Origin: Paralichthys olivaceus
Lineage: Eukaryota; Chordata; Actinopteri; Pleuronectiformes; Paralichthyidae
Length of the DNA stretch: 64,000 nt
Assembly (NCBI RefSeq): GCF_024713975.1
Contig: NC_091112.1
Location: forward strand, 11,183,501-11,247,500
Reading direction: 5' to 3'
A model generated the notes under the pieces. It did not search any database and was not told the origin of the DNA. It was given only the letters and a program-made list of their open reading frames with translations. Position numbers and translations under genes: made by a program. Of this stretch, positions 11,064 to 64,000 are shown in pieces (position 1 is the first letter of the stretch; every line of letters starts with the position of its first letter).

Positions 11064-12185
11064 ATGGCTCCCATTCCCACTTTTACTTTTTTGCGGGCAT
11101 TGCAGAAAGTGATCATTGTGCTAGCTGCAATCATAGTCCTCTTTTCAATGTACTATAAGTCTTTTCCATCTCCAACATGTCACCCTCCCCCAAAGGGACT
11201 GACAAAGCATACCAACACGTCAATGTCTACAACCACCCCAAGCAACCTCGCAGCGACGGAGAAGACTAACAAACCTGTTGTGCTGCTTTGGTTTTGGCCT
11301 GATGGAAAAAAATTTGATTTCAAACTCTGCAAGGATTTAAACATTAACAGCTGCCATCTGACAGATGATAGATCCCTCTACTCCAAAGCTAATGCAGTTG
11401 TGATGTTTCACAGAGATATCAAAGATGACCTGTCCAACCTTCCCACTACGCCAAGGCCCAAATTCCAAAGGTGGATCTGGTTTAACATGGACCCACCCAC
11501 CCGCACACGCAAGATACCAGGAATCGAAGCCTTTTTTAACGTAACCTTGAACTACAGGCGGGATTCAGACATCCCTGCTCGCTGGCAACTGACTGTCAAG
11601 AAGAAAATAGATGATGAATTTGAGCTGCCAAAAAAAGAGCTATTGGTTTGTTGGATTGTGAATAAAACTGACCTCCACACAAAAACAGAGGCTAGATACA
11701 GCTACTACCATGAGCTTGCAAAACATGTAAAAGTGAACATCTTTGACAGCTCCTCTGCCGAGAACTCGAAGGGTGAAAACTATTTCATAACCATTAGTAA
11801 ATGCAAGTTCTTCCTTTCCTTCGAGGATTCAATACACGCAGATTACATCACAGAAACATTCAATGGTCCTCTTTCAGCGGGCACTGTACCAATTGCTTTG
11901 GGCCCACCTAGAGCAAACTATGAGAATTTTTTCCCAAGTACTTCCTTCATACACATTAATGACTTTCCTGATGCCTTTGGACTGGCTGAGTATCTCCTCA
12001 AACTGGATGAGGATAATGAGGCTTATATGAAATACTTTCAATGGCGGCGATTCTATAATGTCAGACGCCATTTTACTGAGGAGAATCAAGAGTTTGCACA
12101 TGCTGTCTGTCAGGCATGTCGTCACATAGTCTTAACCAATGAGTACAGAGTAATACTTGATGTGTACAAGTGGTACTTAATTTGA
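11064..12185 (+). CDS. FUT-A: alpha-1,3-fucosyltransferase 9-like, divergent active site
   Basis: GT10-family type II Golgi glycosyltransferase of 373 aa (human FUT9 has 359). Start chosen at ATG 11064, eight bases after the acceptor TTTCTTGCAG (11047-11056); the frame is open further upstream but that part would be intronic. Order: short cytosolic tail, membrane anchor about residues 14-30, Thr/Pro-rich stem to about 68, then the catalytic domain. Recognisable are DRSLY (102-106), the YRRDSDI motif (164-170) and the donor-site block around 251-287. Compared with FUT9 the ESP motif reads DPP (D143), the donor-site Asn is D255 and the EK lysine is T264; the FUT9 R202 counterpart is kept (R211). 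The family transfers fucose from GDP-fucose to GlcNAc of N-acetyllactosamine. Activity of this copy is uncertain, but the frame is intact. AATAAA at 12767-12772 is a possible polyadenylation signal. Confidence 0.88.
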   Translation: MAPIPTFTFLRALQKVIIVLAAIIVLFSMYYKSFPSPTCHPPPKGLTKHTNTSMSTTTPSNLAATEKTNKPVVLLWFWPDGKKFDFKLCKDLNINSCHLTDDRSLYSKANAVVMFHRDIKDDLSNLPTTPRPKFQRWIWFNMDPPTRTRKIPGIEAFFNVTLNYRRDSDIPARWQLTVKKKIDDEFELPKKELLVCWIVNKTDLHTKTEARYSYYHELAKHVKVNIFDSSSAENSKGENYFITISKCKFFLSFEDSIHADYITETFNGPLSAGTVPIALGPPRANYENFFPSTSFIHINDFPDAFGLAEYLLKLDEDNEAYMKYFQWRRFYNVRRHFTEENQEFAHAVCQACRHIVLTNEYRVILDVYKWYLI

Positions 12186-13423
12186 TTCTCTCATTTTCAT
12201 AGTTAAGCTTAAGATATGTCTAATCTTGCATGTGGGAATGCATTTCTTGCTCTGTAAGAGATTGACTCTTGTATATTTTTGCAATGTATCTATTTCTTTA
12301 ACAAACTGTTTTGTATGTTATTTCTGGAGTGCTTAATAAGTTCTTAATGAAGCTATATGCACTACAGGTCTAGTCTGGTCTACTTCATTTTTATTTCTCC
12401 CTGCAGTACACTCAAAAAGAAATTCACTGGTTCAACTTTGAGGTAACAACTTGTATGGATCATTTTAAGTAGTCAACTCTGGCATTGTTGAGTAAATGCT
12501 ACAAGTCTTTGACAGTCATTCTATCCCAATTACATTAAGCTTTCAAATTATTGCATTGAAGTTCCCCTAACTTCTTTACTTTATTAAAATCCTAATTTTT
12601 TTATATCAATTATTTGTGTAGCTACAGTAAGAACAACAAATAGCAATTCCAGTTTAATATGGTCAGACTTTTTATAGTAAACACTGTTCAAACAATTCTA
12701 ACCGTTAACAATTATGTTCACAAAATATACATGCCCAGCCACTTCCTACAATACTTGGAAAAAAATAATAAATGATGGTGCTTAGCTGGTTCCTCATCCC
12801 CAAATGAGATAGTCTTCATAAAAGGCCCTTTAGCAGCCATTTTCAGAAGTCACTGAAGGATAAACACAAGTGTGATGGTGTGATTTATAATGTAAATTAT
12901 GGCTCTGTTCTGTTTAGATGGGCCATGGACCTGGTATTACACATGCTCACTGGAGTGGCTTTGACTCACTAAATAAAATAGTACCATTATAATATTATCC
13001 CTGAGTTTACCCTTCTATGATGTGTCAAAATGACGGCAGGAAAATCAAACGTGCGTTTGAGTGCCTCAACTGAACACAGAGTCCAATATTTGTATGCTGT
13101 CACCATGAAATTGCCCTCAAACAAAACAAAACAAATATCATGGATTACATCCTGAACTTAATCCTGCTCTTATCATAGTCAAAAAGTAGAAAAAACCTCT
13201 GTCCAAGGTAACACAATTCAAAATAACAATCTTTACAATAAACTTGCAACTTAGTGTTAACAGTACAGCTGCTGTGTTTTAAACAACACCACAGTGCAAT
13301 ATTTCCTTGTGATTAGTTTTTTAGGACAGCAGTCTATGACATTACCTCCGGGCTCGCCTTCAGACCATCTAGTCCAAGGAATATCTTTTGAAATACCTCA
13401 AATGTTTTCATCAGTTCTTTTGA
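12186..13423. other. FUT-A 3' flank, no gene
   Basis: Likely 3'-UTR and intergenic DNA, AT-rich. The right-arm equivalent carries about 76 extra bases after AGCTTAAT (about 62173-62250) and the 356-bp insertion close to the stop codon. No further coding signal seen. Confidence 0.5.
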
Positions 13424-13798
13424 TTAGCTGAGGTGGAGCGCATATATCAGCCCATTAGCAAAGCACAGGCTCTTGGTACATTCAGGTCTTTCAGGACTTG
13501 TGTCCCCTTGATCACTATCTTTGCACGAGCTGTGTCAGACATTATGGCACCTCTGCTGATGACAATCTTCATCACCTCATCTGTAGCCTGCACTTCACTA
13601 TCCTGTAATAAGTAGGACGGAAAATATTTTAGTGTTTTAAGTCATCATATTTAAAAACGAGCAACACAAAGTACAGTGGACTGTTTGAACATTAGTGTTT
13701 CTTACCAAGTGCTCTTTGAAGAGGTCCTCCTCCTTTTCTCTGAGAAACACCACCAGATAACCGAGAGTGACCTCTCTCCTTCTTTCTACTGAATTATC
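13424..13798 (-). pseudogene. Two-exon fragment resembling the C-terminal domain of SAM-domain-3-like fish proteins (left copy)
   Basis: On the minus strand, an acceptor precedes a 93-bp exon (13798 to 13706) whose peptide ends EEDLFKEHL before a GTAAGA donor. A second acceptor leads into an exon starting DSEVQATDE and continuing to RACALLMG and a stop. The pattern (FKEH, then a KIVIKGTQVLKDL-like strand, then ACALL and GLIYALHLS) resembles the C-terminal region of a large family of uncharacterised or SAM-domain-3-like teleost proteins. The last motif is only readable after a one-base shift, so the frame is broken at the same place in both arms. No N-terminal part or convincing start is present. 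Family assignment is from memory of the motif and moderate. Confidence 0.45.
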
Positions 13799-14390
13799 CT
13801 GTGAACAAGAAATAATATTTTACAACTGCACATCCACAGAGTGAATAACATATTTTTATAGGCTTCGCGAATGTTAGTGTCGCCCTTGGGATTTTTCCAT
13901 TGGCTTTTGGATTATGCTCCAGGTTAACATGGCTTGACATCACTACCAATGCCAGCTTTAACTTAAAATGCAGTAAAACACTTATTCTCTTACCTTTGCA
14001 CTGGCAAAACCGACGCTACATAAGTTCAGTGCCACATAACGTAATTTTACTCCTGGCTCAGCTTGTTAGGCAAGCTGCAAACAGTAAGGGAGTGCATTTC
14101 TCAGTTGTTAGATGATGCAATCCTTTTGTTGATTTTTCAAGGGTTTTTTGACAGACAAAGAAAACAGGGCAGGTGTCAGTGATCCACTGAGAAAAAATGA
14201 CAGCCTACTAAGAAAGTATCCCACATTCTACAAGCATGGCAGTTCTAACTCTAACCCCAGGACAAAGTTTCTTTAGTAAAAGATTAACTTAAAATGAACC
14301 TCTTTAACAAGTGCTACTCCTCTGAGCAAAAGGCAAAAGGCTGATCCCCATTCCAGGTGCATGCTTTCACGTGTTGAGTTGCTTAAAGAC

Positions 14391-14548
14391 ATGTGACAAA
14401 CTGCAATTACCAGTTTCTCAGTTTGTTGGTTACCTGTCAGGAGAATTTCAATAATCTACCAGGACCTGTTTGTCTTTGTCAGGCAACATCAGTGTTTTGA
14501 TAGGAGCACAAAACATGTGACAAACTGTAGTTACCGGTTTCTCAGTTT
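14391..14548. repeat. Short direct repeat pair
   Basis: A unit of about 35 bp beginning CATGTGACAAACTG and ending TTTCTCAGTTT occurs at about 14391-14425 and again at 14514-14548 with a few substitutions. Both copies are also in the right arm (about 60180-60330). Confidence 0.6.
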
Positions 14549-14657
14549 CTTGAGGTCAAATTTCCCCATGTTTGCATGTTGCATGCTGTGTGTGGGACCA
14601 TAAATGAGAGGAGGAAATAGGAGGAGGAATACTGTATACTGTACATGATAGGGAAAT

Positions 14658-14693
14658 GTCAACACATTGGTGGAGAACCACCAATGTGTTGAC
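14658..14693. repeat. Perfect 16-bp inverted repeat with 4-base loop
   Basis: GTCAACACATTGGTGG, AGAA, then the exact reverse complement. The right arm has the first half and loop (about 60148-60176) but continues with different sequence, so the hairpin exists only in the left arm and marks the edge of a locally rearranged block. Confidence 0.85.
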
Positions 14694-14754
14694 ACACCGG
14701 TTTTCTTAGCTGGGTAAAAAGGTGTGGACATTGACTATTTTGGATGTATTCTTT

Positions 14755-14816
14755 AATCTACCTACAGAAGCTTGCCGGAGTAGCAGATACACACATCCAG
14801 CCCTGGTACAGGAAAG
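14755..14816 (+). other. Non-coding first exon of FUT-B (3' end supported)
   Basis: Contains ACATCCAGCCCTGG and ends in GGAAAG at a GTAAGG donor (14817). It matches the first exon proposed for FUT-A and FUT-D, and the FUT-B coding exon starts directly after an acceptor 440 bp downstream. The 5' limit is not resolved. Confidence 0.55.
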
Positions 14817-15255
14817 GTAAGGGAAAAAAATTATGTCACTTGTATTGAATTTTTTTATATAGAAACTACATTTAATGTTCTGTAATCTAATCTTATCCCT
14901 CATATAAACATATAAACTGTGAACAAGCATAGGACTTTCATCAAGTGAATGTTGAGTCAGTATTTTTTATTATTTGTCTGATGATGAACAAACTATTATG
15001 AATTTATACTGACAGAAATAATGGATACTGAAGGAAAGAAGTCAAGGGGTCAATTAGACTGGAATTTATAATCATGAGAAATATTAAATAGAGTGTGGAT
15101 CATTTTTGTGAGTGTCTAGTTTTTTTAACTTCCATTTATAGCCACAGTCTGTTCATGTAGTTATGAGCTGCAGTGATAGAATAAGAAAGTAAAAGCATTT
15201 GCTGATATGATGCTGTTATCAAACAGATGACTGATGTTTCTTTGTTCTTCCACAG

Positions 15256-16058
15256 ATGATACAATCCTTCAGTAAAACTTTTTTCCTGGCAAACTTGGCT
15301 GGTGTTGGCCTTATCTGCTGCTTTATTTCCTTCTTTCTATATTTTGAACCTGAATCCACTTTGTGTCCATCTACATCCGGTCATGGAAAAGCTAATGAAG
15401 AGCCACTACCTGAAAAGCCTATTGTCCTGCTTTGGTTCTGGCCTCTTGGTGTGAGGTTTGATTTGAATTCCTGCTTGCCTCACTACAACATTGATAGCCC
15501 AAGAAAGACAAACTGGTGTGTTGGATTGTCAGTAACAACAACCCAGCTACTGGAACAGCTTCAAGAGAGAAATATTACAGAGAACTGTCCCAACACATAA
15601 AGATTGATGTCTTTGGTGTTGCTTTTACAGGGCACCAATTAGAATATGAAGACTATTACCCAACCCTCGCTAGTTGTAAATTTTATCTCTCATTTGAGAA
15701 CTCGCTCCACAAAGACTACTTCGTAGAGAAGGTCAACGGGCCCCTCGTAGCAGGGGCGGTCCCTGTAGTTCTGGGTCCACCAAGAGAAAACTATGAGCAG
15801 TTCCTTCCCAGGGGTTCCTTTATTCATGTAAATGATTTCCCTGATGCTAAAGGACTGGCAGAGTTTCTGCAAGGCCTGGACAAGGATCATGATGCATACA
15901 TGAGTTACTTTGAGTGGAGAAAGCATTATGAAGTCATTCTTCATCTTTTGACAATATACAATGAATTCATTCATCCTATCTGCCTCGCCTGTGACCACAT
16001 CTCAAAATACAAAGAATACCATGTTATCAATGATCTTTATGGGTGGTACTTTTCATGA
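15256..16058 (+). pseudogene. FUT-B left copy: fucosyltransferase 9-like, broken by 280-bp deletion
   Basis: The reading frame opens at ATG 15256, immediately after the acceptor TTCCACAG, with a membrane anchor (about residues 9-29) and stem, and matches the intact 360-aa copy on the minus strand at 58451-59533. At 15498/15499 the sequence jumps from codon 81 (in NIDS) into the codon for Pro-175, removing 280 bp. The junction shares GC with both ends, typical of a short-microhomology deletion. The deletion removes the ESP and YRRD motifs and shifts the frame, ending at a stop at 15598-15600. The rest of the catalytic domain stays open in another frame to 16058. Polyadenylation signal AATAAA at 16480-16485. 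It cannot encode an active enzyme unless this is an assembly error or a polymorphic allele. Confidence 0.9.
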
Positions 16059-17121
16059 AAACTACAAAAGCAAAAGTCCAGCTCCATTCATTCAGCAGAC
16101 ACTGGTTTAATCTGTCTTCACTTGCCGCCTATTTATGATTCGTTCAGATGATCCAGTAGGACCAGTTGAGATGGAGACAAAGATGCTTCAGACTGTTTCA
16201 GTGCAGAATTTGCTTTGAATTTTCTGTCATGTAAAATCTTCATTCTTGTTTTCTTTAAGTGTTTTACAACAGTCAACAGTGGAGGAAAGGTTGCTGCATT
16301 GGTGCTAGGTTTAAATATGAGTTGTTTTGGTTGATCTAGATAGGACTAATAGATAAGTAAACATGTGACTATCTACCACCATCTATGAATTTTACAGGGT
16401 CATGTTGAATTATGCTGTTACATTGGTTTCACTTTGTAGATGTAATACTTTTACTTAGTTTATTACTTTATCAAACTGAAATAAAGGTACCCGAATGTTA
16501 TTTTATTTCTCTTTGATAGTTTGATAGGTTTTTCTATCAGGGGTATTTGTACAAATCAACAAAACCCTTTATGAATAATAAAGGGTAATAAAGGGAGCTT
16601 CCTCATTTCAAGGATGACTTTGTATTTCTCAATCTGGATGTTCGGAAATTATCACAACCAGAGCATCAATTGTTTTAAAGTCAATCTGCTCAACTGCCTA
16701 GTAGAGCATTGATTAGTCAAATTAGTGGCTGGGGCATCAGCACATGGGCCCAGCAGAATATCTACACACATATTTGCAGCAACAGTGCCTCCATCGCCAA
16801 GGGCTCCTGACAGATGTGGAGTGAATTCATTTTTTGCAATTGTAAATTCTGTGACTTCTTCAGAGTTTACACATTAGATCCACATTTTATACTTCTCTGT
16901 AACCCTTAAGGTGTTTTCTAACCACACCAGATAAAATAATGGAGATATCATACTCAGAGGAGACATAGCACAGCTTTTAGTGTTCTTTTTGCCAAAAGAG
17001 AAAATTAGATCATCTGGGACTTTAAGCCGAAATCACCCTGCTTTATGCAGTTTTTAAAAAGCATTATGAAAAACGGACAGAAAGCTGAATACGATAACAC
17101 AGAAATGTCATTAATATTAAC
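16059..17121. other. FUT-B 3' flank
   Basis: The first 330 bases or so after the stop are nearly identical to those after the FUT-D stop (23485-23800), from AAACTACAAAAGCAAAAG onward. The AATAAA at 16480-16485 should end the transcript. The remainder to 17121 shows no gene. Confidence 0.6.
16480..16485 (+). promoter_or_regulatory. Polyadenylation signal, FUT-B
   Basis: AATAAA about 420 bp after the FUT-B stop codon, conserved in reverse orientation in the right arm near 58024. Confidence 0.5.
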
Positions 17122-17382
17122 TCATAGGTTTTTCTTTTTAAGAATCATCTTAAATAAAGAAACTATGATGTAGCGGGCGCACAGCTCTTCCAGGATGCGG
17201 TGCACGCGGGCCACACAGCCGAGAGGTTTGCGGTAGCTATGGTGCAGACGACGGACGTTCATTTCACGCTCGGAGCGAATCTCGAGGGACTGAGCCCGAG
17301 TTTCGGGAGTAAAGCGGACTTCTTCCCCAGAGGACCCGGACTCATTCGCATTGAGAGAGACGAGCGACCCGCGGAGGCACAA
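17122..17382 (-). CDS. Unidentified 86-aa ORF in a CpG-rich island (left copy)
   Basis: The ORF starts MCLRGSLVSL and ends KMILKKKNL. It contains an Arg/His-rich middle (MNVRRLHHSYRKPLG) and two cysteines in GCVARVHRILEELCARY. I do not recognise it and see no signal peptide. The surrounding 17160-17460 is rich in CpG. Reading on the minus strand, a TATA-like CTATATAAG lies at about 17482-17490, roughly 100 bp before the start, a plausible promoter. The copy in the right arm encodes the same 86 residues. A plus-strand ORF (17200-17412) covers the same DNA, so the coding strand is not proven; the island could simply be a first exon or promoter. Confidence 0.3.
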   Translation of the reverse strand: MCLRGSLVSLNANESGSSGEEVRFTPETRAQSLEIRSEREMNVRRLHHSYRKPLGCVARVHRILEELCARYIIVSLFKMILKKKNL

Positions 17383-17479
17383 CGATCACATGGTCAACAG
17401 CTGAGACGCTGAAGCAACTGGCAGCAATACTGACGCAGCAGCGGAGCGATCCAAGGGAGTGATGGGGCATTTCTCTCTG

Positions 17480-17492
17480 CTTATATAGACTG
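17480..17492. promoter_or_regulatory. TATA-like element usable on both strands
   Basis: CTTATATAGAC reads as a TATA-type box in both directions. On the minus strand it precedes the 86-aa ORF; on the plus strand it lies upstream of FUT-C. The right-arm copy is at about 57017-57029. Confidence 0.35.
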
Positions 17493-17779
17493 CCTAATAA
17501 GGTGGGTGTGTGTTATAGATGATTGTGGAGAGAGCGAGGTATGTCACATGATGTACATCACGTGATTGGAGCAGCTCAGCTCAAATTGGCTGCCTGAACT
17601 AGCTCGCAGGCGTCGCTCCATTTTTGGTTCCAAGCAGTGTTTGATTTTGTGTATCATGACATATCCATGTGGTGGCGTTTCCGGCATGTGAGGAAACATC
17701 GAAAACGTGTAAAGCAGTGATTAAAACTGGGTTGTCCTGTTGGCACAGGAGTGGCACCTGCATCTTTTTTTCAGTGCTC

Positions 17780-17830: not shown

Positions 17831-17895
17831 GTGAGAACAGCATTTTTTGATGCTTTCTGTCCTGTTAACATGTCAAAATTATGGAGCTTTTCAGA

Positions 17896-18545: not shown

Positions 18546-19637
18546 ATGAGAGCATCTTTCAGTAAAACTTCGTTCCTCGCAAAGGTAGCTGCTCTTGGCC
18601 TCATCTGCTCTACTGTTGCCTTCTTTATATATTTTGAGCCTCCAGCTTCTTTGTGTCTGCCTACGTCCACATTGGCTGAGAACAAAACTGATGAAGCCCC
18701 AGAGCCAGCTGAAAAGCCCATTGTCCTGCTGTGGTTCTGGCCTATTGGTGTAGTGTTTGATTTAAAAAAATGTGAAACCCACTTCAACATTACTAGCTGC
18801 ATACTAACTGCTGACAGATCACTGTACAGCCAAGCAGATGGAGTCATTTTCTATCATAAAGACATCTCCTGGGGTTTAGACAACTTGCCTCAGGAGCCAC
18901 GTCCATATTTTCAGAAGTGGATTTGGTACAATGTGGAATCTCCCACGAACACGGCAAAGAAACCAGGTCTGGAAAACCTGTTCAACTTAACACTGAGCTA
19001 CAGACGAGATGCTGACATCACAGTGAGGAATGAGGTGACGATCAAGAAAACAGAGACAGAGGAGGAATTTGTTCTGCCCAAGAAAGACAAACTGGTGTGT
19101 TGGATTGTCAGTAACAACAACCCAGCTACTGGAACAGCTGCGAGAGAGACATATTACAGAGAACTGTCCCAACACATACAGATTGATGTCTTTGGTGTTG
19201 CGTTTACAGGGTACGCATTAGAATTTGAAAAGTATTACCCAACACTTGAGAGTTGTAAATTTTATCTCTCATTTGAGAACTCGCTCCACAAAGACTACTT
19301 CGTAGAGAAGGTCAACGGGCCCCTCGTAGCAGGGGCAGTCCCTGTAGTTATGGGTCCACCAAGAGAAAACTATGAGCAGTTCCTTCCCAGTGGTTCCTTT
19401 ATTCACGTAAATGATTTCCCTGATGCTAAAGGACTGGCAGAGTTTCTGCAAGGCCTGGACAAGGATCATGATGCATACATGAGTTACTTTGAGTGGAGAA
19501 AGCACTATAAAGTCACCCCTCATCTTTTGTCAATGAGCAATGAATTCATTCATCCTGTCTGCCTCGCCTGTGACCACATCTCAAAATACACAGAATACCA
19601 TGTTATCAATGATCTTTATGGGTGGTACTTTTCATGA
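18546..19637 (+). CDS. FUT-C: alpha-1,3-fucosyltransferase 9-like
   Basis: Intact 363-aa GT10 type II membrane enzyme. The ATG directly follows the acceptor TTTTCACAG, the same arrangement as FUT-B and FUT-D. Membrane anchor about residues 10-30, short stem with an NKT sequon (46-48), catalytic domain from about 57. The FUT9 key residues are present: E131 in ESPTNT, R200 before the YYRELS motif, N245 in SFENS and K255 in VEK, so it should bind GDP-fucose and transfer fucose in alpha-1,3 linkage to GlcNAc of N-acetyllactosamine in the Golgi. YRRDADI is at 152-158 and further sequons occur at 81-83 (NIT) and 147-149 (NLT). From about residue 148 on it is nearly identical to FUT-B and FUT-D, whereas the anchor and stem differ. 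AATAAA at 19888-19893. Confidence 0.92.
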
Positions 19638-21345: not shown

Positions 21346-22392
21346 TACATATAAGTGAATTAATTTATATTCATTTAATAATTGTTTAATTGTTAAATTT
21401 GATTTATTAATTGTTTGTTATGTGCAAAATTCAATAATGAATTCAGAAGTAGTATACCGCACACTTTTATTAAAAGCACTTCTATTTAAATAAATGTCCA
21501 AAAACATTTGCTTTGCAAATAATAAATAGTCACAATCATACCAACTGAACAGGAACCTTATGAGCAACAGCAAAGTTAGCAGTTATAAGTCTGTTTCCTT
21601 TTTTTTCTTAACAACTAACACCCTTTCAGTGATGCAAGATGAGTAGTTACACCATGACAAAATAAATAAATAGGTACAGGACCTGCAAAAAAAAAAATCT
21701 TTCACAGAGTACAGATGTTGCAGATGTGGCAAATTCAGCCTCGCAGTGATGCTAATAGTGTTTGTCTTTTCAATGCTACCCATTCCACGTGTATGAAAAC
21801 ATAAAGACACAGCGGGACTGGGTGCTTGGTTACCAGTGTTGCCAGCTTTTTGCTTTCAATGGCCGAGCAGCTAAAGCCAGCACTTGATAAGCTGCTAGAT
21901 AACATGGCTTTACTTTTGCATTAGCGACATCACATTGTTACTGCTGTATTGACGTTGAACCTTTGTATTGGTTTTTGAAAGTCTAGCTTACATATTATGA
22001 TCAGGATAACACAAGGCACATTTTTGAATACTGTGGAGGTGAACCCTTGTACATAGAGAAACATAAAATGCTTCGGACATGTACTGAGCTCCAGATCATT
22101 TTAGGAGATTATCAAGAGATTATGTATGTAAGAACACATATTTCAGAGTTTGCCGTGCCAATGCCCCAGTAAACACTTTAGATAGTCTATGAATGAGCTC
22201 ATGTGAGAACACAGCAAGAGATTCTAAAATGTAACAGACACAAAACTGAAAAAAACTAAGAGAATACAACTACTGTATCTCAGGATGAAAAAGTTGCAAA
22301 ACTATGATGGGACATTCACTGCCTGTGTCATTACTGAAACCATTATGCTGTTTGCTAATGAGATGACATCAGTTTTTCTTTTCCTTCCACAG

Positions 22393-23484
22393 ATGATAGC
22401 ATCTTTAAATAAAACTTCATGCCTGGCAAAGGTAGCTACACTTGGCCTTGTCTGCTGTGTTGTTGCCTTCTTTGTACATTTCAAGCCTCCATCTCCTGTG
22501 TGTCAGACTTTGTCTACAGTAGCTGATGAAAGAATCAATGAAGCCATAGAGTTACCTGAAAAGCCCATTGTTCTGCTGTGGCTCTGGCCTCTTGGTGTGA
22601 GGTTTAATTTCCAAATTTGCTCAAGCTACTTCAACATTGATAGCTGCACACTGACTGATGACAGATCACTGTACAGCCAAGCAGAGGGAGTCATTTTCTT
22701 CCATAAAGACATAAACTGGCATTTAATCAACATGCCCAAGGAGCCACGTCCATATTTTCAGAAGTGGATTTGGTTCCATGTGGAATCTCCGACCAACACA
22801 TTGAAGATTCCAGGTCTGGAAAAGCTGTTCAACTTAACGCTGAGCTACAGACGAGATGCTGACATCACAGTGAGGAATGAGGTCACGATCAAGAAAACAG
22901 AGACAGAGGAGGAATTTGTTCTGCCCAAGAAAGACAAACTGGTGTGTTGGATTGTCAGTAACAACAACCCAGCTACTGGAACAGCTTCAAGAGAGAAATA
23001 TTACAGAGAACTGTCCCAACACATAAAGATTAATGTCTTTGGTGCTGCTTTTAATGGACACCAATTGAAATATGAAGACTATTACCCAACCCTCGCAAGT
23101 TGTAAATTTTATCTCTCGTTTGAGAACTCGCTCCACAAAGACTACTTCGTAGAGAAGGTCAACGGGCCCCTCGTAGCAGGGGCGGTCCCTGTAGTTCTGG
23201 GTCCACCAAGAGAAAACTATGAGCAGTTCCTTCCCAGGGGTTCCTTTATTCATGTAAATGATTTCCCTGATGCTAAAGGACTGGCAGAGTTTCTGCAAGG
23301 CCTGGACAAGGATCATGATGCATACATGAGTTACTTTGAGTGGAGAAAGCATTATAAAGTCACCCCTCATCTTTTGTCAATGAGCAATGAATTCATTCAT
23401 CCTATCTGCCTCGCCTGTGACCACATCTCAAAATACAAAGAATACCATGTTATCAATGATCTTTATGGGTGGTACTTTTCATGA
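22393..23484 (+). CDS. FUT-D: alpha-1,3-fucosyltransferase 9-like
   Basis: Intact 363-aa GT10 enzyme. The open frame extends upstream to 22285, but the acceptor CTTCCACAG ends at 22392 and the first codon after it is the ATG, as in its paralogues, so the start is placed there. Membrane anchor about residues 11-30, stem about 31-56, catalytic domain after that. Catalytic and donor-site residues match FUT9: E131, R200, N245 and K255. FUT-B, FUT-C and FUT-D share almost the same sequence from YRRDADI to the C-terminus, ending GWYFS; FUT-D is closest to FUT-B, and that similarity continues about 300 bp into the 3' flank, which suggests recent duplication or conversion. Predicted product: Lewis-x type terminal fucosylation in the Golgi. 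Confidence 0.92.
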
Positions 23485-23801
23485 AAACTACAAAAGCAAA
23501 AGTCCAGCTCCATTCATTCAGCAGACACTGGTTTAATCTGTCTTCACTTGCCGCCTATTTATGATTCGTTCAGATGATCCAGTAGGACCAGTTGAGATGG
23601 AGACAAAGATGCTTCAGACTGTTTCAGTGCAGAATTTGCTTTGAATTTTCTGTCATGTAAAATCTTCATTCTTGTTTTCTTTAAGTGTTTTACAACAGTC
23701 AACAGTGGAGGAAAGGTTGCTGCATTGGTGCTAGGTTTAAATATGAGTTGTTTTGGTTGATCTAGATAGGACTAATAGATAAGTAAACATGTCACTATCT
23801 A

Positions 23802-23871
23802 CCATCTCAAAATACAAAGAATACCATGTTATCAATGATCTTTATGGGTGGTGCTTTTCATGAAAACTACA
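23802..23871 (+). pseudogene. Repeated 3' end of a FUT gene behind FUT-D
   Basis: About 70 bp repeating the last 20 or so codons, stop and first UTR bases of FUT-B/-D, with one visible change (GGTGGTGCTTTTCATG where the genes have GGTGGTACTTTTCATG). It sits in the FUT-D 3' flank, 340 bp after the real stop, joined at a short CCATCT-like overlap. Confidence 0.8.
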
Positions 23872-26636: not shown

Positions 26637-26925
26637 CTGAACTTCATTTTTGCGCTCCCTCTCTCTCTCTTTACAAACAGCTTCAAGCAGCAGAGGCAGC
26701 TGTTCCCTCCTCCACATCTGCTTTGGCAAGTCCCCTCCAACCATCCTCCTCCACCTGGACCCTTCGTGCCACTTTCTCGGACAGCCTTGTCTTTTCCCGG
26801 CGGCCGTGCACGGAGCAGTGAAGGCGCGCCGCCCTTGGCGCACCGAGAAGCGGACTCCTCTCCTTCCTCCGTCCGCGCCTCCTGCCGCCCCCTCCTGCTG
26901 GAGCTGGAGAGATGCCCGGGGCAGG

Positions 26926-29900
26926 ATGTGCTCCAGCCGCAAGATCCTGTGGAGCCTGCTCTTGCTGTCCGTGTTGGAGGTGGGCCTGGGTGTGGCGAGC
27001 ATCGTCCTGGGAGCCGTGGGCATCAGCAGGGTCCGGGGAGAGCACAAGCCGCAGCAGGGCGACGCGTCCCCGGTGTGGAGCGGGCTCTGTGTACGTCCTG
27101 CATGGGAACAACTCTTCTCCTCACTTCTTACCTTGTTGTCAGAGAGGATGAGTATGGATGTGGATTAAACTCTATTAAGCGCTGTAAAAATTCAAAAGAA
27201 CATGTAGAGTATAGGTGTTCACTACTGTAAGTATCAAAACTAGTCGTTATAGGTTCATATTCAGTATATTAATTTTAAAATAACTTTATTTTCCGTGGTC
27301 CTACGAGTCATAACCAGTTTTGGATTGAGGAGGATTAAATTGATTTATGTTAATGCTGTTGGCTGTTTATCTAATATTAATCACTCTTTCCCTTTTTATA
27401 CACAACAGCCTCTCAGTATTAATAACCTGGCTGTGGGTAAAGAGTAAATATTATGGCTGCCAGCCCTCTATGTGGCTTTGTGTGTTTGTCCATTAGATGT
27501 TGGAGACACACAGTCATTTGGTCCACTGTAGATGCCTCTGTACTGGAGCCAAAGATTGGTTTCATTAATTTATGCTTGAATTGTTGCTCTGTGCTCAGGG
27601 AGGGTAAAAGCATTTTACGCACAATCATCCTCTCACTGCTCTGCATACCTCTCCCCCTGTTGTAGAGCCGCTGGCAGCCTCACTGTCTTCATTTTGATGC
27701 TGAACAAACAAAGGTTGAGTTTTCTTTTTGATACCAAAAATGTTTTGATACCAATATTGGCTGATGTAAACTTTGGCAATTATTCCTAAAATGTCGTTGT
27801 CAAAACTTCATGACAAAGAAATGTAAATTAGACTTGATATTTTACAGTGTAACCATAAACTTTATTATAAATAACTATAAATATAAAGAAAACACAAATT
27901 TAACCAAATATAAACCTTGAAACAAGAAATTAAAAAAAAAATTCAGATAAAATGTTTTTTGCATCGCAGTGTTTTGTTAAACTGTGAAAGGGCATATAGG
28001 CCAATATTATCGGCCACCTGATATATCTGTCGAGTTATTATTGAATCAGCTACTATGCTACTCCCACTGGGGAACTAAGAATTTCACATGCAATATGAGC
28101 CATAAAAAAGCATGCATCTTTTTTTTTTTTGCAAAGTTCAGAGATTCTAATTTTAGTGTAAATTTGTAAGTGTGAAGGAAACCAAGAGGAGAGATATTAG
28201 AGATGTGACATTGTTGCGCTCCCACAGTGCTGTGTGTAAAATTGCTGTTATGCAATGTGATGTCTATGTGTGTTGAACCTCACAGCTGTTGAGTGCTGTT
28301 TGCTGAGTCAGCTGCCCGGGTCTCATGATCATCCAGAGGTTTAGATCTCCTGTCAGGACCTGCGAGTCATTGAGACTGATTGAACGCTGTCCCCAAAGGA
28401 GGCTGGATAATCACTTTTAAGTTTCCTGCTGAGAGTAAAGAGACTGTCGATCATTTCAAATCATCATCATTTCAGGCCACGAAACGTTAAAGTTATAAAG
28501 AATTTTATGCTCAGTTTATTTTAAATTAGTGCCAAATAAGAATGAAATTCAGTTTTCTGAATGGCTCACTTCTTGAAGGTAGGTCAAACCTGAAAAATCT
28601 TGGACTGTGTTTTGTATTATATCTAAAGATGTCAACAATATAGATAAAATGAGTTGGGATTAGTTTCTGCAAAACTGTAAATACTGAAATAACAGTAAAA
28701 GTTGATGAGGAACTCCCATTGAAATTGTACTTTTATATCTTTCAATACAAGTAAGAGAAAAAAGTAAGTGCACCTATAGTCACTCTTATAAAAGGTCATT
28801 TTAAACTACAACATATTGAGAGTGGAAGGAGTGACATCAAACACACACACACACTGCGCCGAACGTTTCATCAAAACCAGCCCACTCTGATGTCCCACTT
28901 TTAAGTGCACTCTGTCAGCACAATACACCACTGTGCTGCTCCAGTTCAGTCTGAATCACTGATACAGGACAACATGGCTTCCTGATGGAAGCTCACACTG
29001 TTATTTTCTTTGAGGGAGAGAAGTGCATCTGAGTGAGCGGGTGTAAGGAACACCTTCACCCTTCCTGTTGTCGGGACAGGGAGGAGCAACCCACCAAAAC
29101 ATTTAAAATTTAATACCATTTCTTAATAGGTGACTTTTCCTCAGTGACAGGAACTTTTGGAACTGTTCCATTTGTTCATGTGTCTTCCTCTCTTTCCAGT
29201 TCCTGGTCTGTGGGATGTGCGGAGTGTTGTGTGCTCGAAAGAGGACGGGTCTTATTGTAAGTACTTAAAGCTATTTTGTTCCCCTATGATCCTCTTTTCT
29301 TATTCTCACCTCCTGTTTTAAATGAATAGTTCATATTCATAGCTCATATCGGCTACAGCCAGAATATGATCCGCTTAGCTTAATTTAGCTTGGCACATTT
29401 TTATGGACCATTTGATGGAAAGTGTGGGCGAGCCATTTCTTTCTTTTGAAGCAAAGATAAGGCTGTAAATTAATTTTATCAAGATATGTAATGATAATAT
29501 TCCTCCAACATTTCATTGCTTCAGACAAATGGACACTCGCCCAAGTTGCAATTTAATGTTGGTGCATTTTAGGCATGTCATTTTTTCTGACTTTCATCTT
29601 TTTTTGCTTGAATCTGAAGTAGTTGCATTTGTTCACATCAAACTGATCAAACTTAAACCCTCATCGTCTGAAGAGTTTTAAAGCCAATTCATCCATAAAA
29701 TAATGCACCACTGTTGTCAGTGTCCACTGTTTCATGATGCTAAACCAAATCCATTAGGTGAGACAAAGGAGCCTGTGAGGGAGCCTGGAAACCCAAATCA
29801 TTATTTATCATTTGTTTTCATCTGTATTTGTTTGTTAGTTTGTCAATTGGTTGGATTACACAAAAACTACTGGACAGAATAGTACAAAACTAGTGTTAAG

Positions 29901-47201: not shown

Positions 47202-47202
47202 T

Positions 47203-49832: not shown

Positions 49833-50306
49833 ATGGATGTGGAGCTGCCAGGCCGCTTAGTGGACTCTGCATTAATCAATTTTGTCAATGACATGAGCCT
49901 GATAGAGTTTCCGCAGAAATTCACATTGGGACCAAAGCAGCAGGGGGACAATACCACACCCAGCCCGAGCAACCAGGGCGACTCGTCTTGGAGCCGGAGC
50001 CTGGAAAACGACGTGCGCACAGTGGAGCTCCGCACCGAGCTTCTGGCGATGGGCCCGCAGAGGTACTATAGCCGCGGGGCGCACGGTCACGCCACATCCA
50101 GACGCAGGAGGATCATCACTGTGGTGCAGCGCCACGCGGCCAACGTGAGGGAGAGAAAGCGGATGTTCAGCCTGAACGAGGCGTTTGACGAACTGAGGAG
50201 GAAAGTTCCCACATTCGCGTACGAGAAGAGACTGTCCCGCATCGAGACCCTGCGCCTCGCCATCGTCTACATCTCCTTCATGACGGACCTACTGGAGAAC
50301 ACATGA
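49833..50306 (+). CDS. ferd3l: ferd3l: Fer3-like bHLH transcription factor
   Basis: Single-exon gene, 157 aa. The C-terminal half is a bHLH domain: basic region [13 protein letters not shown] (99-111), helix 1 [15 protein letters not shown], loop with [11 protein letters not shown] and helix 2 [11 protein letters not shown] up to about 154. This is the diagnostic FERD3L/Nato3 domain. The protein binds E-box DNA as a heterodimer with E-proteins and acts as a repressor in neural floor plate and midbrain development. The N-terminus is poorly conserved in the family and here begins [26 protein letters not shown] at 50615-50620. It lies 2.1 kb before twist1 on the same strand, the ancestral vertebrate arrangement. 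Confidence 0.95.
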
Positions 50307-52417: not shown

Positions 52418-52975
52418 ATGCGGGAAGAGGACTCCTCCCCGATGGACAGTGCGGGGAACAGCGAGGAGGAGACAGACCGTCATCTGCCGCGGAGAGGCGC
52501 GAGGAAGCGGCGGGCTGCACGGAGGAGCGTGGACGCAGAGGAGGAGGAGAGAGACGCGGAGAGTCAGAGCCCAAGCCGCGGTAAGAAGAGGTGCAGGAAG
52601 AGCTGTGACGGTGGAGGAGGCAGCGCCGGGAGCGGAGGCAGCGAGGCCAGCAGCAGCCCCGCGCGCTCCTTCGAAGACCTCCAAACGCAGCGCGTAATGG
52701 CCAACGTCCGCGAGCGGCAACGGACACAGTCTCTCAACGAGGCGTTCACTTCGCTACGGAAGATCATCCCCACGCTGCCGTCTGACAAACTCAGCAAGAT
52801 CCAGACGCTGAAGCTGGCAGCCCGGTACATCGACTTCCTGTGCCAAGTCCTGCAGAGCGACGAGCTGGACGCGCGGGGAACCAGCTGCAGCTACGTGGCG
52901 CACGAACGCCTGAGCTACGCGTTCTCGGTCTGGAGGATGGGGGGCTCGTGGTCCCTGTCTACTGCGTCCCACTAG
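52418..52975 (+). CDS. twist1: twist1: Twist family bHLH transcription factor 1
   Basis: 185 aa encoded in one exon. N-terminal acidic and basic tracts with nuclear-localisation-like RKRR (29-32) and GKKRCRK (55-61), a Gly/Ser-rich linker (65-80), then the Twist bHLH (about 89-145: [17 protein letters not shown] in the basic region and helix 1, [20 protein letters not shown] in the loop and helix 2). The C-terminal WR/Twist box is [14 protein letters not shown]. Twist1 dimerises with E-proteins, binds E-boxes and controls mesoderm, neural crest and skull development. An intron in the 3'-UTR (donor 53003, acceptor ending 53544) matches the known two-exon structure. Polyadenylation signals AATAAA at 53913 and 54007. 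Linkage to ferd3l supports twist1 rather than twist2 or twist3; whether it is the a or b copy cannot be told here. Confidence 0.95.
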
Positions 52976-56849: not shown

Positions 56850-57124
56850 ATGATACACAAAATCAAACACTGCTTGGAACCAAAAATGGAGCGACGCCTG
56901 CGAGCTAGTTCAGGCAGCCAATTTGAGCTGAGCTGCTCCAATCACGTGATGTACATCATGTGACATACCTCGCTCTCTCCACAATCATCTATAACACACA
57001 CCCACCTTATTAGGCAGTCTATATAACCAGAGAGAAATGCCCCATCACTCCCTTGGATCGCTCCGCTGCTGCGTCAGTATTGCTGCCAGTTGCTTCAGCG
57101 TCTCAGCTGTTGACCATGTGATCG

Positions 57125-57385
57125 TTGTGCCTCCGCGGGTCGCTCGTCTCTCTCAATGCGAATGAGTCCGGGTCCTCTGGGGAAGAAGTCCGCTTTACTC
57201 CCGAAACTCGGGCTCAGTCCCTCGAGATTCGCTCCGAGCGTGAAATGAACGTCCGTCGTCTGCACCATAGCTACCGCAAACCTCTCGGCTGTGTGGCCCG
57301 CGTGCACCGCATCCTGGAAGAGCTGTGCGCCCGCTACATCATAGTTTCTTTATTTAAGATGATTCTTAAAAAGAAAAACCTATGA
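57125..57385 (+). CDS. Unidentified 86-aa ORF in a CpG-rich island (right copy)
   Basis: Encodes the same 86 residues as 17122-17382. A TATA-like CTATATAAC lies about 100 bp upstream (57018-57026). Function unknown; see the left copy for the sequence features and the doubt about the strand. Confidence 0.3.
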   Translation: MCLRGSLVSLNANESGSSGEEVRFTPETRAQSLEIRSEREMNVRRLHHSYRKPLGCVARVHRILEELCARYIIVSLFKMILKKKNL

Positions 57386-58450
57386 GTTAATATTAATGAC
57401 ATTTCTATGTTATCTTATTCAGCTTTCTGTCCGTTTTTCATAATGCTTTTTAAAAACTGCATAAAGCAGGGTGATTTCGGCTTAAAGTCCCAGATGATCT
57501 AATTTTCTCTTTTGGCAAAAAGAACACTAAAAGCTGTGCTATGTCTCCTCTGAGTATGATATCTCCATTATTTTATCTGGTGTGGTTAGAAAACACCTTA
57601 AGGGTTACAGAGAAGTATAAAATGTGGATCTAATGTGTAAACTCTGAAGAAGTCACAGAATTTACAATTGCAAAAAATGAATTCACCCCACATCTGTCAG
57701 GAGCCCTTGGCGATGGAGGCACTGTTGCTGCAAATATGAGTGTGTAGATATTCTGCTGGGCCCATGTGCTGATGCCCCAGCCACTAATTTGACTAATCAA
57801 TGCTCTACTAGGCAGTTGAGCAGATTGACTTTAAAACAATTGATGCTCTGGTTGTGATAATTTCCGAACATCCAGATTGAGAAATACAAAATCATCCTTG
57901 AAATGAGGAAGCTCCCTTTATTATCCTTTATTATTCATAAAGGGCTTTGTTGATTTGTACAAATACCCCTGATAGAAAAACCTATCAAACTATCAAAGAG
58001 AAATAAAATAACATTTGGGTACCTTTATTTCAGTTTGATAAAGTAATAAACTAAGTAAAAGTATTACATCTACAAAGTGAAACCAATGTAACAGCATAAT
58101 TCAACATGACCATGTACAATTCATAGATGGTGGTAGATAGTGACATGTTTACTTATCTATTAGTCCTATCTAGATCAACCAAAACAACTCATATTTAAAC
58201 CTAGCACCAATGCAGCAACCTTTTCTCCACTGTTGACTGTTGTAAAACACTTAAAGAAAACAAGAATGAAGATTTTACATGACAGAAAATTCAAAGCAAA
58301 TTCTGCACTGAAACAGTCTGAAGCATCTTTGTCTCCATCTCAACTGGTCCTACTGGATCATCTGAACGAATCATAAATAGGCGGCAAGTGAAGACAGATT
58401 AAACCAGTGTCTGCTGAATGAATGGAGCTGGACTTTTGCTTTTGTAGTTT

Positions 58451-59533
58451 TCATGAAAAGTACCACCCATAAAGATCATTGATAACATGGTATTCTTTGT
58501 ATTTTGAGATGTGGTCACAGGCGAGGCAGACAGGTTGAATGAATTCATTGTATATTGTCAAAAGATGAGGAATGACTTCATAATGCTTTCTCCACTCAAA
58601 GTAACTCATGTATGCATCATGATCCTTGTCCAGGCCTTGCAGAAACTCTGCCAGTCCTTTAGCATCAGGGAAATCATTTACATGAATAAAGGAACCCCTG
58701 GGAAGGAACTGCTCATAGTTTTCTCTTGGTGGACCCAGAACTACAGGGACCGCCCCTGCTACGAGGGGCCCGTTGACCTTCTCTACGAAGTAGTCTTTGT
58801 GGAGCGAGTTCTCAAGTGAGAGATAAAATTTACAACTAGCGAGGGTTGGGTAATAGTCTTCATATTCTAATTGGTGCCCTGTAAAAGCAACACCAAAGAC
58901 ATCAATCTTTATGTGTTGGGACAGTTCTCTGTAATATTTCTCTCTTGAAGCTGTTCCAGTAGCTGGGTTGTTGTTACTGACAATCCAACACACCAGTTTG
59001 TCTTTCTTGGGCAGAACAAATTCCTCCTTTGTCTCTGTTTTCTTGATCGTCACCTCATTCCTCACTGTGATGTCAGCATCTCGTCTGTAGCTCAGTGTTA
59101 AGTTGAACAGGTTTTCCAAACCTGGTTTCTTCGCCGTGTTGGTTGGAGATTCCACATTGTACCAAATCCACCTCTGAAAAGATGGACGTGGCTCCTGAGG
59201 CAAGTTCTCCAAACCCCAGGAGATGTCTTTATGGAAGAAAACGACTCCCTCTGCTTGGCTGTACAGTGATCTGTCATCAGTCAGTATGCAGCTATCAATG
59301 TTGTAGTGAGGCAAGCAGGAATTCAAATCAAACCTCACACCAAGAGGCCAGAACCAAAGCAGGACAATAGGCTTTTCAGGTAGTGGCTCTTCATTAGCTT
59401 TTCCATGACCGGATGTAGATGGACACAAAGTGGATTCAGGTTCAAAATATAGAAAGAAGGAAACAAAGCAGCAGATAAGGCCAACACCAGCCAAGTTTGC
59501 CAGGAACAAAGTTTTACTGAAGGATTGTATCAT
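58451..59533 (-). CDS. FUT-B right copy: alpha-1,3-fucosyltransferase 9-like, intact
   Basis: Complete 360-aa GT10 type II enzyme and the unbroken counterpart of 15256-16058. The ATG (59533) directly follows an acceptor (CTTCCACAG on the minus strand). Membrane anchor about residues 9-29; stem with [13 protein letters not shown]; catalytic domain from about 54. FUT9-equivalent residues are present: E128 in ESPTNT, R197 in [11 protein letters not shown]242 and K252. One oddity: the SFENS motif reads SLENS (L240), whereas the left copy and FUT-C and FUT-D have F. This is a conservative change in a highly conserved motif, so reduced activity is possible. The non-coding first exon is at about 59973-60035. 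Expected role: fucosylation of N-acetyllactosamine ends in the Golgi. Confidence 0.92.
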
Positions 59534-59972
59534 CTGTGGAAGAACAAAGAAACATCAGTCATCTGTTTGATAACAGCATCATATCAGCAAATGCTTTTAC
59601 TCTCTTATTCTATCACTGCAGCTCATAACTACATGAACAGACTGTGGCTATAAATGGAAGTTAAAAAAACTAGACACTCACAAAAATGATCCACACTCTA
59701 TTTAATATTTCTCATGATTATAAATTCCAGTCTAATTGACCCCTTGACTTCTTTCCTTCAGTATCCATTATTTCTGTCAGTATAAATTCATAATAGTTTG
59801 TTCATCATCAGACAAATAATAAAAAATACTGACTCAACATTCACTTGATGAAAGTCCTATGCTTGTTCACAGTTTATATGTTTATATGAGGGATAAGATT
59901 AGATTACAGAACATTAAATGTAGTTTCTATATAAAAAAATTCAATACAAGTGACATAATTTTTTTCCCTTAC

Positions 59973-60035
59973 CTTTCCTGTATCAGGGCTGGATGTGTGT
60001 ATCTGCTACTCCGGCAAGCTTCTGTAGGTAGATTA
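59973..60035 (-). other. Non-coding first exon of right FUT-B
   Basis: On the minus strand contains CATCCAGCCCTGATACAGG and ends GGAAAG at a GTAAGG donor, the mirror of 14755-14816. Confidence 0.5.
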
Positions 60036-60923
60036 AAGAATACATCCAAATAGTCAATGTCCACACCTTTTTACCCAGCTAAGAAAACCGGTTCTACAAA
60101 GCACCTCTGCTGGGCGTTGGGAGGGGAAACGTCAACAGGAATGGAAATGTCAACACATTGGTGGAGAACCACCAAACTGAGAAACCGGTAACTGCAGTTT
60201 GTCACATGTTTTGTGCTCCTATCAAAACACTGATGTTGCCTGACAAAGACAAACAGGTCCTGGTAGATTATTGAAATTCTCCTGACAGGTAACCAACAAA
60301 CTGAGAAACTGGTAATTGCAGTTTGTCACATGTCTTTAAGCAACTCAACACGTGAAAGCATGCACCTGGAATGGGGATCAGCCTTTTGCCTTTTGCTCAG
60401 AGGAGTAGCACTTGTTAAAGAGGTTCATTTTAAGTTAATCTTTTACTAAAGAAACTTTGTCCTGGGGTTAGAGTTAGAACTGCCATGCTTGTAGAATGTG
60501 GGATACTTTCTTAGTAGGCTGTCATTTTTTCTCAGTGGATCACTGACACCCGCCCTGTTTTCTTTGTCTGTCAAAAAACCCTTGAAAAATCAACAAAAGG
60601 ATTGCATCATCTAACAACTGAGAAATGCACTCCCTTACTGTTTGCAGCTTGCCTAACAAGCTGAGCCAGGAGTAAAATTACGTTACGTGGCACTGAACTT
60701 ATGTAGCGTCGGTTTTGCCTGTGCAAAGGTAAGAGAATAAGTGTTTTACTGCATTTTAAGTTAAAGCTGGCATTGGTAGTGATGTCAAGCCATGTTAACC
60801 TGGAGCATAATCCAAAAGCCAATGGAAAAATCCCAAGGGCGACACTAACATTCGCGAAGCCTATAAAAATATGTTATTCACTCTGTGGATGTGCAGTTGT
60901 AAAATATTATTTCTTGTTCACAG

Positions 60924-61300
60924 GATAATTCAGTAGAAAGAAGGAGAGAGGTCACTCTCGGTTATCTGGTGGTGTTTCTCAGAGAAAAGGAGGAGGACCT
61001 CTTCAAAGAGCACTTGGTAAGAAACACTAATGTTCAAACAGTCCACCGTACTTTGTGTTGCTCTTGTTTTTAAATATGATGACTTAAAACACTAAAATAT
61101 TTTCCGTCCTACTTATTACAGGATAGTGAAGTGCAGGCTACAGATGAGATGATGAAGATTGTCATCAGCAGAGGTGCCATAATGTCTGACACAGCTCGTG
61201 CAAAGATAGTGATCAAGGGGACACAAGTCCTGAAAGACCTGAATGTACCAAGAGCCTGTGCTTTGCTAATGGGCTGATATATGCGCTCCACCTCAGCTAA
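60924..61300 (+). pseudogene. SAM3-like C-terminal fragment (right copy)
   Basis: Plus-strand mirror of 13424-13798. Exons 60924-61016 and 61122 onward, with acceptor and donor sites kept. A stop at 61275-61277 falls one base out of frame before a readable GLIYALHLS and stop at 61298-61300. A possible upstream non-coding exon ends GCAAAG at a GTAAGA donor near 60727. The shared frame break means the damage predates the duplication. Confidence 0.45.
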
Positions 61301-62584
61301 TCAAAAGAACTGATGAAAACATTTGAGGTATTTCAAAAGATATTCCTTGGACTAGATGGTCTGAAGGCGAGCCCGACTGCTGTCCTAAAAAACAAATCAC
61401 AAGGAAATGTTGCACTGTGGTGTTGTTTAAAACACAGCAGCTGTACTAACTCACACTAAGTTGCAAGTTTATTGTAAAGATTGTTATTTTGAATTGTGTT
61501 ACCTTGGACAGAGGTTTTTTCTACTTTTTGACTATGATAAGAGCAGGATTAAGTTCAGGATGTAATCCATGATATTTGTTTTGTTTTGTTTGAGGGCAAT
61601 TTCATGGTGACACTATACAAATATTGGACTCTGTGTTCAGTTGAGGCACTCAAACGCACTGTTTGATTTTCCTGCCGTCATTTTGACACATCATAGAAGG
61701 GTAAACTCAGGGATAATATTATAATGGTACTATTTTATTTAGTGAGTCAAAGCCACTCCAGTGAGCATGTGTAATACCAGGTCCATGGCCCATCTAAACA
61801 GAACAGAGCCATAATTTACATTATAAATCACACCATCACACTTGTGTTTATCCTTCAGTGACTTCTGAAAATGGCTGCTAAAGGGCCTTTTATGAAGACT
61901 ATCTCATTTGGGGATGAGGAACCAGCTAAGCACCATCATTTATTATTTTTTTCCAAGTATTGTAGGAAGTGGCTGGGCATGTATATTTTATGAACATAAT
62001 TGTTAACGGTTAGAATTGTTTGAACAGTGTTTACAATAAAAAGTCTGACCATATTAAACTGGAATTGCTATTTGTTGTTCTTACTGTAGCTACACAAATA
62101 ATTGATATAAAAAAATTAGGATTTTAATAAAATAAAGAAGTTAGGGGAACTTCAATGCAATAATTTGAAAGCTTAATATCAACACATCCTTTGAGTTAAT
62201 ATTAAGGTGGTTAAGCTTTTAGAGCTCAAAACAAATCCTGTTGGATGTGCTTATGTAATTGGGATAGAATGACTGTCAAAGACTTGTAGCATTTACTCAA
62301 CAATGCCAGAGTTGACTACATAAAATGATCCATACAAGTTGTTACCTCAAAGTTGAACCAGTGAATTTCTTTTTGAGTGTACTGCAGGGAGAAATAAAAA
62401 TGAAGTAGACCAGACTAGACCTGTAGTGCATATAGCTTCATTAAGAACTTATTAAGCACTCCAGAAATAACATACAAAACACAGTTTGTTAAAGAAATAG
62501 ATACATTGCAAAAATATACAAGAGTCAATCTCTTACAGAGCAAGAAATGCATTCCCACATGCCAGATTAGACATATCTTAAGCT

Positions 62585-62940
62585 GTTTTATGTCCTGCAG
62601 AGGATCACCATAGTATTAGGTCCGGACTTTCTCCGCAGTTTGCCTTTCACGCATGCACAACGCAGCAAGAGATTCTCAGGTGTTCACAACAGTCTTAAAT
62701 CCTCCGCAGGATTCAGGGGAGGGGTGGTGCAGCAGGCAGAGCTAGGATGGAAGATATTCATTACACTTCCAAGATCACATGTTCTTGTTTACAGTAGATT
62801 GACAGTGACATCTTGAGACTCTCACTTGGACATTTGCGTTCACCACCTCCGGAGAAACTTTATGGTAACCTCAAATGAATAAAGCACCAAAACAACAACT
62901 TTGACAATTACATTCTGAAGAATATGCTTAGCCTGTGTAC
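62585..62940. mobile_element. 356-bp insertion specific to the right arm
   Basis: The left arm has uninterrupted CTTAAGCTTAAC here. The right arm has AGCT on both sides of 356 extra bases, consistent with a 4-bp target duplication. The insert starts GTTTTATGTCCTGCAG and ends GCCTGTGTAC, contains ATGAATAAAGCACC near its right end, has no clear terminal inverted repeats and no ORF. Family unknown. Confidence 0.65.
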
Positions 62941-62943
62941 AGC

Positions 62944-64000
62944 TTAACTATGAAAATAAGAGAATCTAATTAAGTACCACTTGTACACATCAAGTATTAC
63001 TCTGTACTCATTGGTTAAGACTATGTGACGACATGCCTGACAGACAACATGTGCAAACTCTTGATTCTCCTCAGTAAAATGGCGTCTGACATTATAGAAT
63101 CGTCGCCATTGAAAGTATTTCATATAAGCCTCATTATCCTCATCCAGTTTGAGGAGATACTCAGCCAGTCCAAAGGCATCAGGAAAGTCATTAATGTGTA
63201 TGAAGGAAGTACTTGGGAAAAAATTCTCATAGTTTGCTCTAGGTGGGCCCAAAGCAATTGGTACAGTGCCCGCTGAAAGAGGACCATTGAATGTTTCTGT
63301 GATGTAATCTGCGTGTATTGAATCCTCGAAGGAAAGGAAGAACTTGCATTTACTAATGGTTATGAAATAGTTTTCACCCTTCGAGTTCTCGGCAGAGGAG
63401 CTGTCAAAGATGTTCACTTTTACATGTTTTGCAAGCTCATGGTAGTAGCTGTATCTAGCCTCTGTTTTTGTGTGGAGGTCAGTTTTATTCACAATCCAAC
63501 AAACCAATAGCTCTTTTTTGGCAGCTCAAATTCGTCATCTATTTTCTTCTTGACAGTCAGTTGCCAGCGAGCAGGGATGTCTGAATCCCGCCTGTAGTTC
63601 AAGGTTACGTTAAAAAAGGCTTCGATTCCTGGTATCTTGCGTGTGCGGGTGGGTGGGTCCATGTTAAACCAGATCCACCTTTGGAATTTGGGCCTTGGCG
63701 TAGTGGGAAGGTTGGACAGGTCATCTTTGATATCTCTGTGAAACATCACAACTGCATTAGCTTTGGAGTAGAGGGATCTATCATCTGTCAGATGGCAGCT
63801 GTTAATGTTTAAATCCTTGCAGAGTTTGAAATCAAATTTTTTGCCATCAGGCCAAAACCAAAGCAGCACAACAGGTTTGTTAGTCTTCTCCGTCGCTGCG
63901 AGGTTGCTTGGGGTGGTTGTAGACATTGACGTGTTGGTATGCTTTGTCAGTCCCTTTGGGGGAGGGTGACATGTTGGAGATGGAAAAGACTTATAGTACA
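62944..64000 (-). pseudogene. FUT-A right copy: frameshifted and stop-altered, partial
   Basis: Mirror of FUT-A and cut by the window edge at about residue 29. An A7 run in the left gene is A6 here (T run at 63514-63519 on the plus strand), shifting the frame after ELPKK and ending translation soon after. The downstream frame is open from about 63507 to the end. The left TGA stop is AGA here, adding RFSYFHS before the next stop, and the 356-bp insertion follows at once. The altered donor-site residues (EDS, TET) are the same as in the left copy. A homopolymer sequencing error could mimic the frameshift, but the stop change is a separate difference. Confidence 0.85.

Follow-up and report, generated by a model that had tools for sequence, protein, structure and literature searches.

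Inverted FUT9-like fucosyltransferase arms around a twist1 gene block in Paralichthys olivaceus: a probable recent duplication

In the human genome, the FLNA-EMD region is a short segment flanked by arms of very high likeness. Among human inversions between inverted repeats, signs of recurrence have been described in 11 of the 16 that could be analysed, according to the accessible part of the study (PMC3961182), and the FLNA-EMD region (HsInv0389) figures as a block between inverted repeats that is open to repeated inversion. A similar arrangement is found in Paralichthys olivaceus, but the fish locus differs in that its arms carry fucosyltransferase (FUT) genes and no inverted allele is seen in the one assembly. 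In Lagocephalus sceleratus, 24 FUT9 genes are listed in the accessible text (PMC8692874). FUT9-like genes have grown in number in P. olivaceus as well, including seven GT10 matches on contig C23, but the accessible sections of the Lagocephalus account describe no inverted copy across a developmental locus. In mammals, enhancers inside and outside HDAC9 drive Twist1, as given in the available part of PMC6233932, and this TWIST1-HDAC9 regulatory landscape, as far as that part goes, represents the same neighbourhood as the fish locus. The latter differs in that HDAC9 was not found there and a FUT arm occupies that side of twist1. Among the matches listed in a search of titles and abstract openings that covered FUT clusters of fish, inverted duplications and the surroundings of twist1, with the subscription literature mostly outside its range, the arrangement was not recognised; one paper, in its available part, has a table naming twist1a that has no bearing on the arrangement (PMC11034925).

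The stretch analysed, termed the window, comprises 64,000 bases (C20:11183501-11247500), contains no N and belongs to a genome of 588 Mb in 25 contigs. An earlier note had claimed inverted arms at 11149-17657 and 56850-64000, matching over at least 6.5 kb and about 39 kb apart, and self-BLAST gives a single minus-strand chain with exactly those coordinates. The left arm (11149..17657, + strand) has 6,509 bases and may extend to the left of 11149; the right arm, the inverted copy (56850..64000, - strand), has at least 7,151 bases and reaches the window end, where it is cut. Five blocks form the chain (11149-12209 / 64000-62941, 12206-12540 / 62584-62249, 12534-14548 / 62177-60174, 14696-15498 / 60092-59291 and 15497-17657 / 59012-56850), with identities of 98.3-99.4%. 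When the window was resampled 20 times with a first-order Markov model, the longest inverted match arising by chance was 41 bases. The inner edges, 17657 and 56850, are separated by 39,192 bases (39.2 kb). Inverted segmental duplications are copies of at least 1 kb and at least 90% identity in opposite orientation on the same chromosome; the arms have all these properties, and the arrangement is an ordinary, real-looking member of this known class. A 1258-base piece of the inner arm has full-length genome matches only at the two arms and partial matches of up to 86% elsewhere (best 40 of 520 candidates scored). A 1941-base mid-arm piece likewise matches in full length at the two arms only, its best partial matches elsewhere being 86% over 1455 bases, 93% over 475 and 94% over 83. 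Positions 10000-11148 match only themselves in the genome, and Rfam gave no matches at gathering scores. The arms probably stem from a recent duplicative insertion that placed an inverted copy of FUT1 and FUT2, part of a FUT9-like cluster, in the interval from twist1 to snx13. This insertion is seen at its inner side in one assembly, and the right arm runs on past the window to its outer end.

The enclosed genes are those the earlier note had listed: two FUT genes, tmem196, polr1f, ferd3l and twist1, several of the names being assigned from translations. The loci at 26641..31627 (exons), 49833..50306 and 52418..52975, all on the + strand, we take to be tmem196, ferd3l and twist1, respectively, from their translations, and sp8 is named in the same manner. 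Both ferd3l and twist1 have a bHLH match, and one exon of polr1f (exons within 34830..37677, + strand) has an RPA43_OB match. Four of the ten pieces sent to Pfam gave no match (sp8, one polr1f exon and two tmem196 exons), so the names sp8 and tmem196 are putative. The tmem196 exon at 31436-31576 was found once in the genome. To the left of the window are sp8 and an integrin-beta gene, by position itgb8, and no gene was recognised by eye among open reading frames of at least 50 amino acids in 1-10,900. To the right is snx13 (+ strand, about 85.5 kb on the window scale), with PXA, PX and Nexin_C matches, the PXA match lying on C20 at 85.6 kb on the same scale. FUT1, FUT2, FUT3 and FUT4 all stand on the + strand ahead of tmem196, and FUT2' and FUT1' follow twist1 on the - strand. 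The other genes are ordered sp8+, itgb8-, tmem196+, polr1f+, ferd3l+, twist1+ and snx13+. Human 7p21, read in this direction, presumably has the same gene order and strands, which suggests that the block has kept its former orientation; no flip is seen.

The two FUT genes of the arms have decayed differently. FUT1 of the left arm (11064..12185, + strand) is intron-less, open and FUT9-like; its reading frame opens at 10947 and 11064 is the likely start. The right-arm copy, FUT1' (62965..64000, - strand, 5' end beyond the window), has a frameshift near 63520, where a run of A has six residues instead of seven, and its stop is changed from TGA to AGA by a plain substitution. The change in the A run could be a sequencing error. 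Left-arm FUT2 (15256..16075, + strand) is broken at 15496/15497 by the loss of 280 bases, and FUT2' of the right arm (58451..59533, - strand) is open, with 360 amino acids. Of the four FUT copies that the arms contain, two are broken as assembled, and each arm has one open FUT frame, of a different gene, FUT1 on the left and FUT2' on the right. The open FUT2 copy is now on the twist1 side; if the arms are real, they show how unequal decay of inverted copies can give the gene copy that survives a different set of neighbours. FUT2' displays a Leu at the Phe position (58816) of the LSFENS motif, a position occupied by Phe in human FUT9 and in each of the 10 further FUTs of the alignment. The left FUT2 fragment retains the Phe, and the change to Leu may lower FUT2' activity. 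Both GT10 domains, PF00852 and PF17039, were detected in all four FUT proteins scanned, and among solved structures human FUT9 (8d0o) gave the best match to FUT1 and FUT2', the two that were searched. By domains and best solved match, both are predicted FUT9-like GT10 alpha-1,3-fucosyltransferases. Two further open genes, FUT3 (18546..19637) and FUT4 (22285..23484), both on the + strand, are enclosed between the arms. GT10 matches number 19 in the genome, six of them on C20, all within the window.

FUT4 has a mosaic relationship with FUT2. The FUT4 3' half and 3' flank (22923..23804, + strand) are 98% identical in self-BLAST to left FUT2 positions 15497-16378 over 882 bases (59012-58131 in the right arm), and the adjoining sequence, 22342-22644, is 72% identical to 15207-15498. 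In an alignment of FUT2' with FUT4, read in bins of 100 columns, identity is 74-90% through about column 500 of the gene, and thereafter 93-100% to 300 bases beyond the stop, where it ends abruptly. FUT3 is 91-98% identical to FUT2' in the same part of the gene, and the likeness is absent beyond the stop. The near-identical 3' halves beside divergent 5' halves are best read, on alignment evidence, as putative traces of gene conversion, or of unequal exchange, between the tandem genes. As the FUT2/FUT4 tract differs by 2%, the exchange probably predates the arms. The arms differ at six sites inside the tract; FUT4 matches the left arm at four of these and the right arm at the other two, which suggests that it overwrote neither arm recently.

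Such conversion-like exchange in the cluster, a 98% tract beside 72% sequence, gives some support to the possibility that the arms stem from an older duplication held alike by whole-arm gene conversion. The pattern of divergence points the other way. Between the arms there are 44 substitutions in 6336 aligned columns of the five blocks (0.69%), 27 transitions and 17 transversions, with 12 gap openings inside the blocks, one of 15 bases. The column count leaves out a replaced tract (L 14549-14702, 154 bases, vs R 60173-60086, 88 bases) and three pieces of 360, 77 and 280 bases that lie outside the aligned blocks and are found in the right arm only. Substitutions are spread as at random, with a VMR of 1.16 (p 0.22) in 200-base bins and 0.69 (p 0.80) in 400-base bins, and the longest run without a substitution is 430 columns (p 0.94). 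Neither patchy divergence nor longer-than-chance runs of identity, both expected of converting arms, was found. Gene-breaking lesions and large indels are also private to one arm. The recent origin that the earlier note read from the near identity of the arms is upheld by these data, but continuing conversion, its other suggestion, is not supported by the evenly spread substitutions, on which it was rejected, nor by the private lesions. With converted patches absent, whole-arm conversion fits only as a single event over the entire arm with none since, and must be considered quite unlikely.

Some of the large differences can be polarized. Positions 131-360 of the 360-base right-only piece (62584..62943, - strand) match dispersed repeats at 73-80% (best 40 of 1072 candidates scored); as the likeness is no higher, the piece appears old, and the 360 bases would most likely have been deleted from the left arm. 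The 280-base difference takes out part of the FUT2 reading frame and is best read as a left-arm deletion also. With these two stretches the right arm retains more old sequence, as would be expected if it were the older site and left FUT1-FUT2 the copy. Later deletions, however, say nothing on the direction of copying, and left FUT1 and FUT2 belong, with FUT3 and FUT4, to one tandem array on a single strand. This reverse direction is therefore rather unlikely. A hairpin-like inverted repeat is included in the replaced tract (14549-14702 / 60086-60173) and perhaps consists of transposon ends.

The inner junctions are sharp. Both arms read ...TTTGATTTTGTGTATCAT at their inner ends, past which the left side continues with GACATATCC and the right side with ACTAGTGGC; the final shared bases are ...GTATCAT, and the arms diverge directly after. 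The final 19-mer of the arms, with up to 2 mismatches allowed, is found at two sites in the window, the two inner edges. The first 234 bases past the left edge (17658-17891) had no genome match elsewhere in the best 40 of 535 candidates, and the 145 bases by the right edge (56705-56849) had none elsewhere among the matches listed (at least 155), the genome search scoring part of the candidates, such that an absent match is no proof of single copy. Sequence further past these 145 bases gave mainly microsatellite matches among the matches listed. Repeats do occur within the arms. A transposon-like sequence common to both (12600..14054, + strand) is 86% identical to a stretch of C13, and an old dispersed repeat (17168..17632, + strand) stops about 30 bases short of the inner edge. 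Carriage of the arm by a transposon was considered and rejected, since the dispersed repeat stops early and the bases at the edge have no listed copy elsewhere on either side.

These junctions bear on whether the right arm is an assembly artefact, i.e. the left arm in its alternative haplotype, misjoined in inverted orientation. A divergence of 0.69% with several indels also fits two alleles of one locus and is within the range of heterozygosity in fish, and a contig end may lie just beyond the right edge of the window. A misplaced haplotig, however, should show a gap at its inner side too, and no N occurs in the window. The sequences that meet at the inner junction have neither a shared nor a listed repeat, which makes a repeat-driven misjoin improbable. 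An artefact of this type is accordingly judged unlikely. A fold-back read would give near-identical arms, and the differences of 360, 280 and 77 bases rule against it.

An inverted duplicative insertion of recent date remains the preferred reading. FUT1 and FUT2 of the tandem FUT1-FUT4 cluster, on a segment no shorter than 6.5 kb, would have been copied in inverted orientation between twist1 and snx13. The left copy is the more likely source, since FUT3 and FUT4 follow directly in the same line and the right copy ends short of FUT3, after FUT2. As the join displays no homology, copying probably occurred by end joining or template switching. The copies would then have drifted apart, with loss of the 360 and 280 bases from the left arm, loss of frame and stop in the right FUT1 copy, and acquisition of the Phe-to-Leu change at a conserved position in the right FUT2 copy. 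Substitution rates in teleosts are a few 1e-9 per site per year, and with 0.69% divergence the duplication might be of the order of a million years old.

HDAC9 is expected beside twist1. The HDAC4_Gln domain, which we take to mark class IIa HDACs, gave six matches at four loci in a profile search of the genome, none on C20, although a match cannot tell HDAC9 from HDAC4. With all matches off C20, HDAC9 appears to have been lost between twist1 and snx13 on this contig; a fragment could persist beyond the window. On C10, a second twist-like gene lies at 18476565, preceded at 13 kb by a bHLH match and followed at about 65 kb by an HDAC4_Gln match; it is probably the twist1 ohnologue with HDAC9. 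On C13, a twist-like gene at 11918799 and an HDAC at 11959370 are probably twist2-HDAC4.

The arms are long and highly identical, with unbroken identity tracts as required of NAHR arms; the longest exact tract is 416 bases, and the next are 380 and 379. The longest tract exceeds the 200-300 bases usually regarded as necessary for recombination. A flip of the block is possible in principle, and the arms may be long and alike enough for inversion by homologous recombination, although none is seen. A bolder proposal is that of a working inversion switch, whereby both orientations of the 39-kb FUT3-FUT4-tmem196-polr1f-ferd3l-twist1 block would occur in wild fish, the absence of HDAC9 and its enhancers from the locus would make flips tolerable, and every flip would also reassort which arm has the open FUT1 and FUT2 copies. 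This is highly speculative and quite doubtful. If real, the locus is a natural example, still young, of an expanding glycosyltransferase family that has come to flank a conserved developmental regulator with repeats prone to inversion. It would then offer a place for testing whether twist1 gene order tolerates flips after the departure of HDAC9.

A second, denser expansion is present on C23 (5255275-5286392), where the seven GT10 (FUT9-like) matches fall within 31 kb. Six of these genes were translated and are 88-98% alike in protein sequence.
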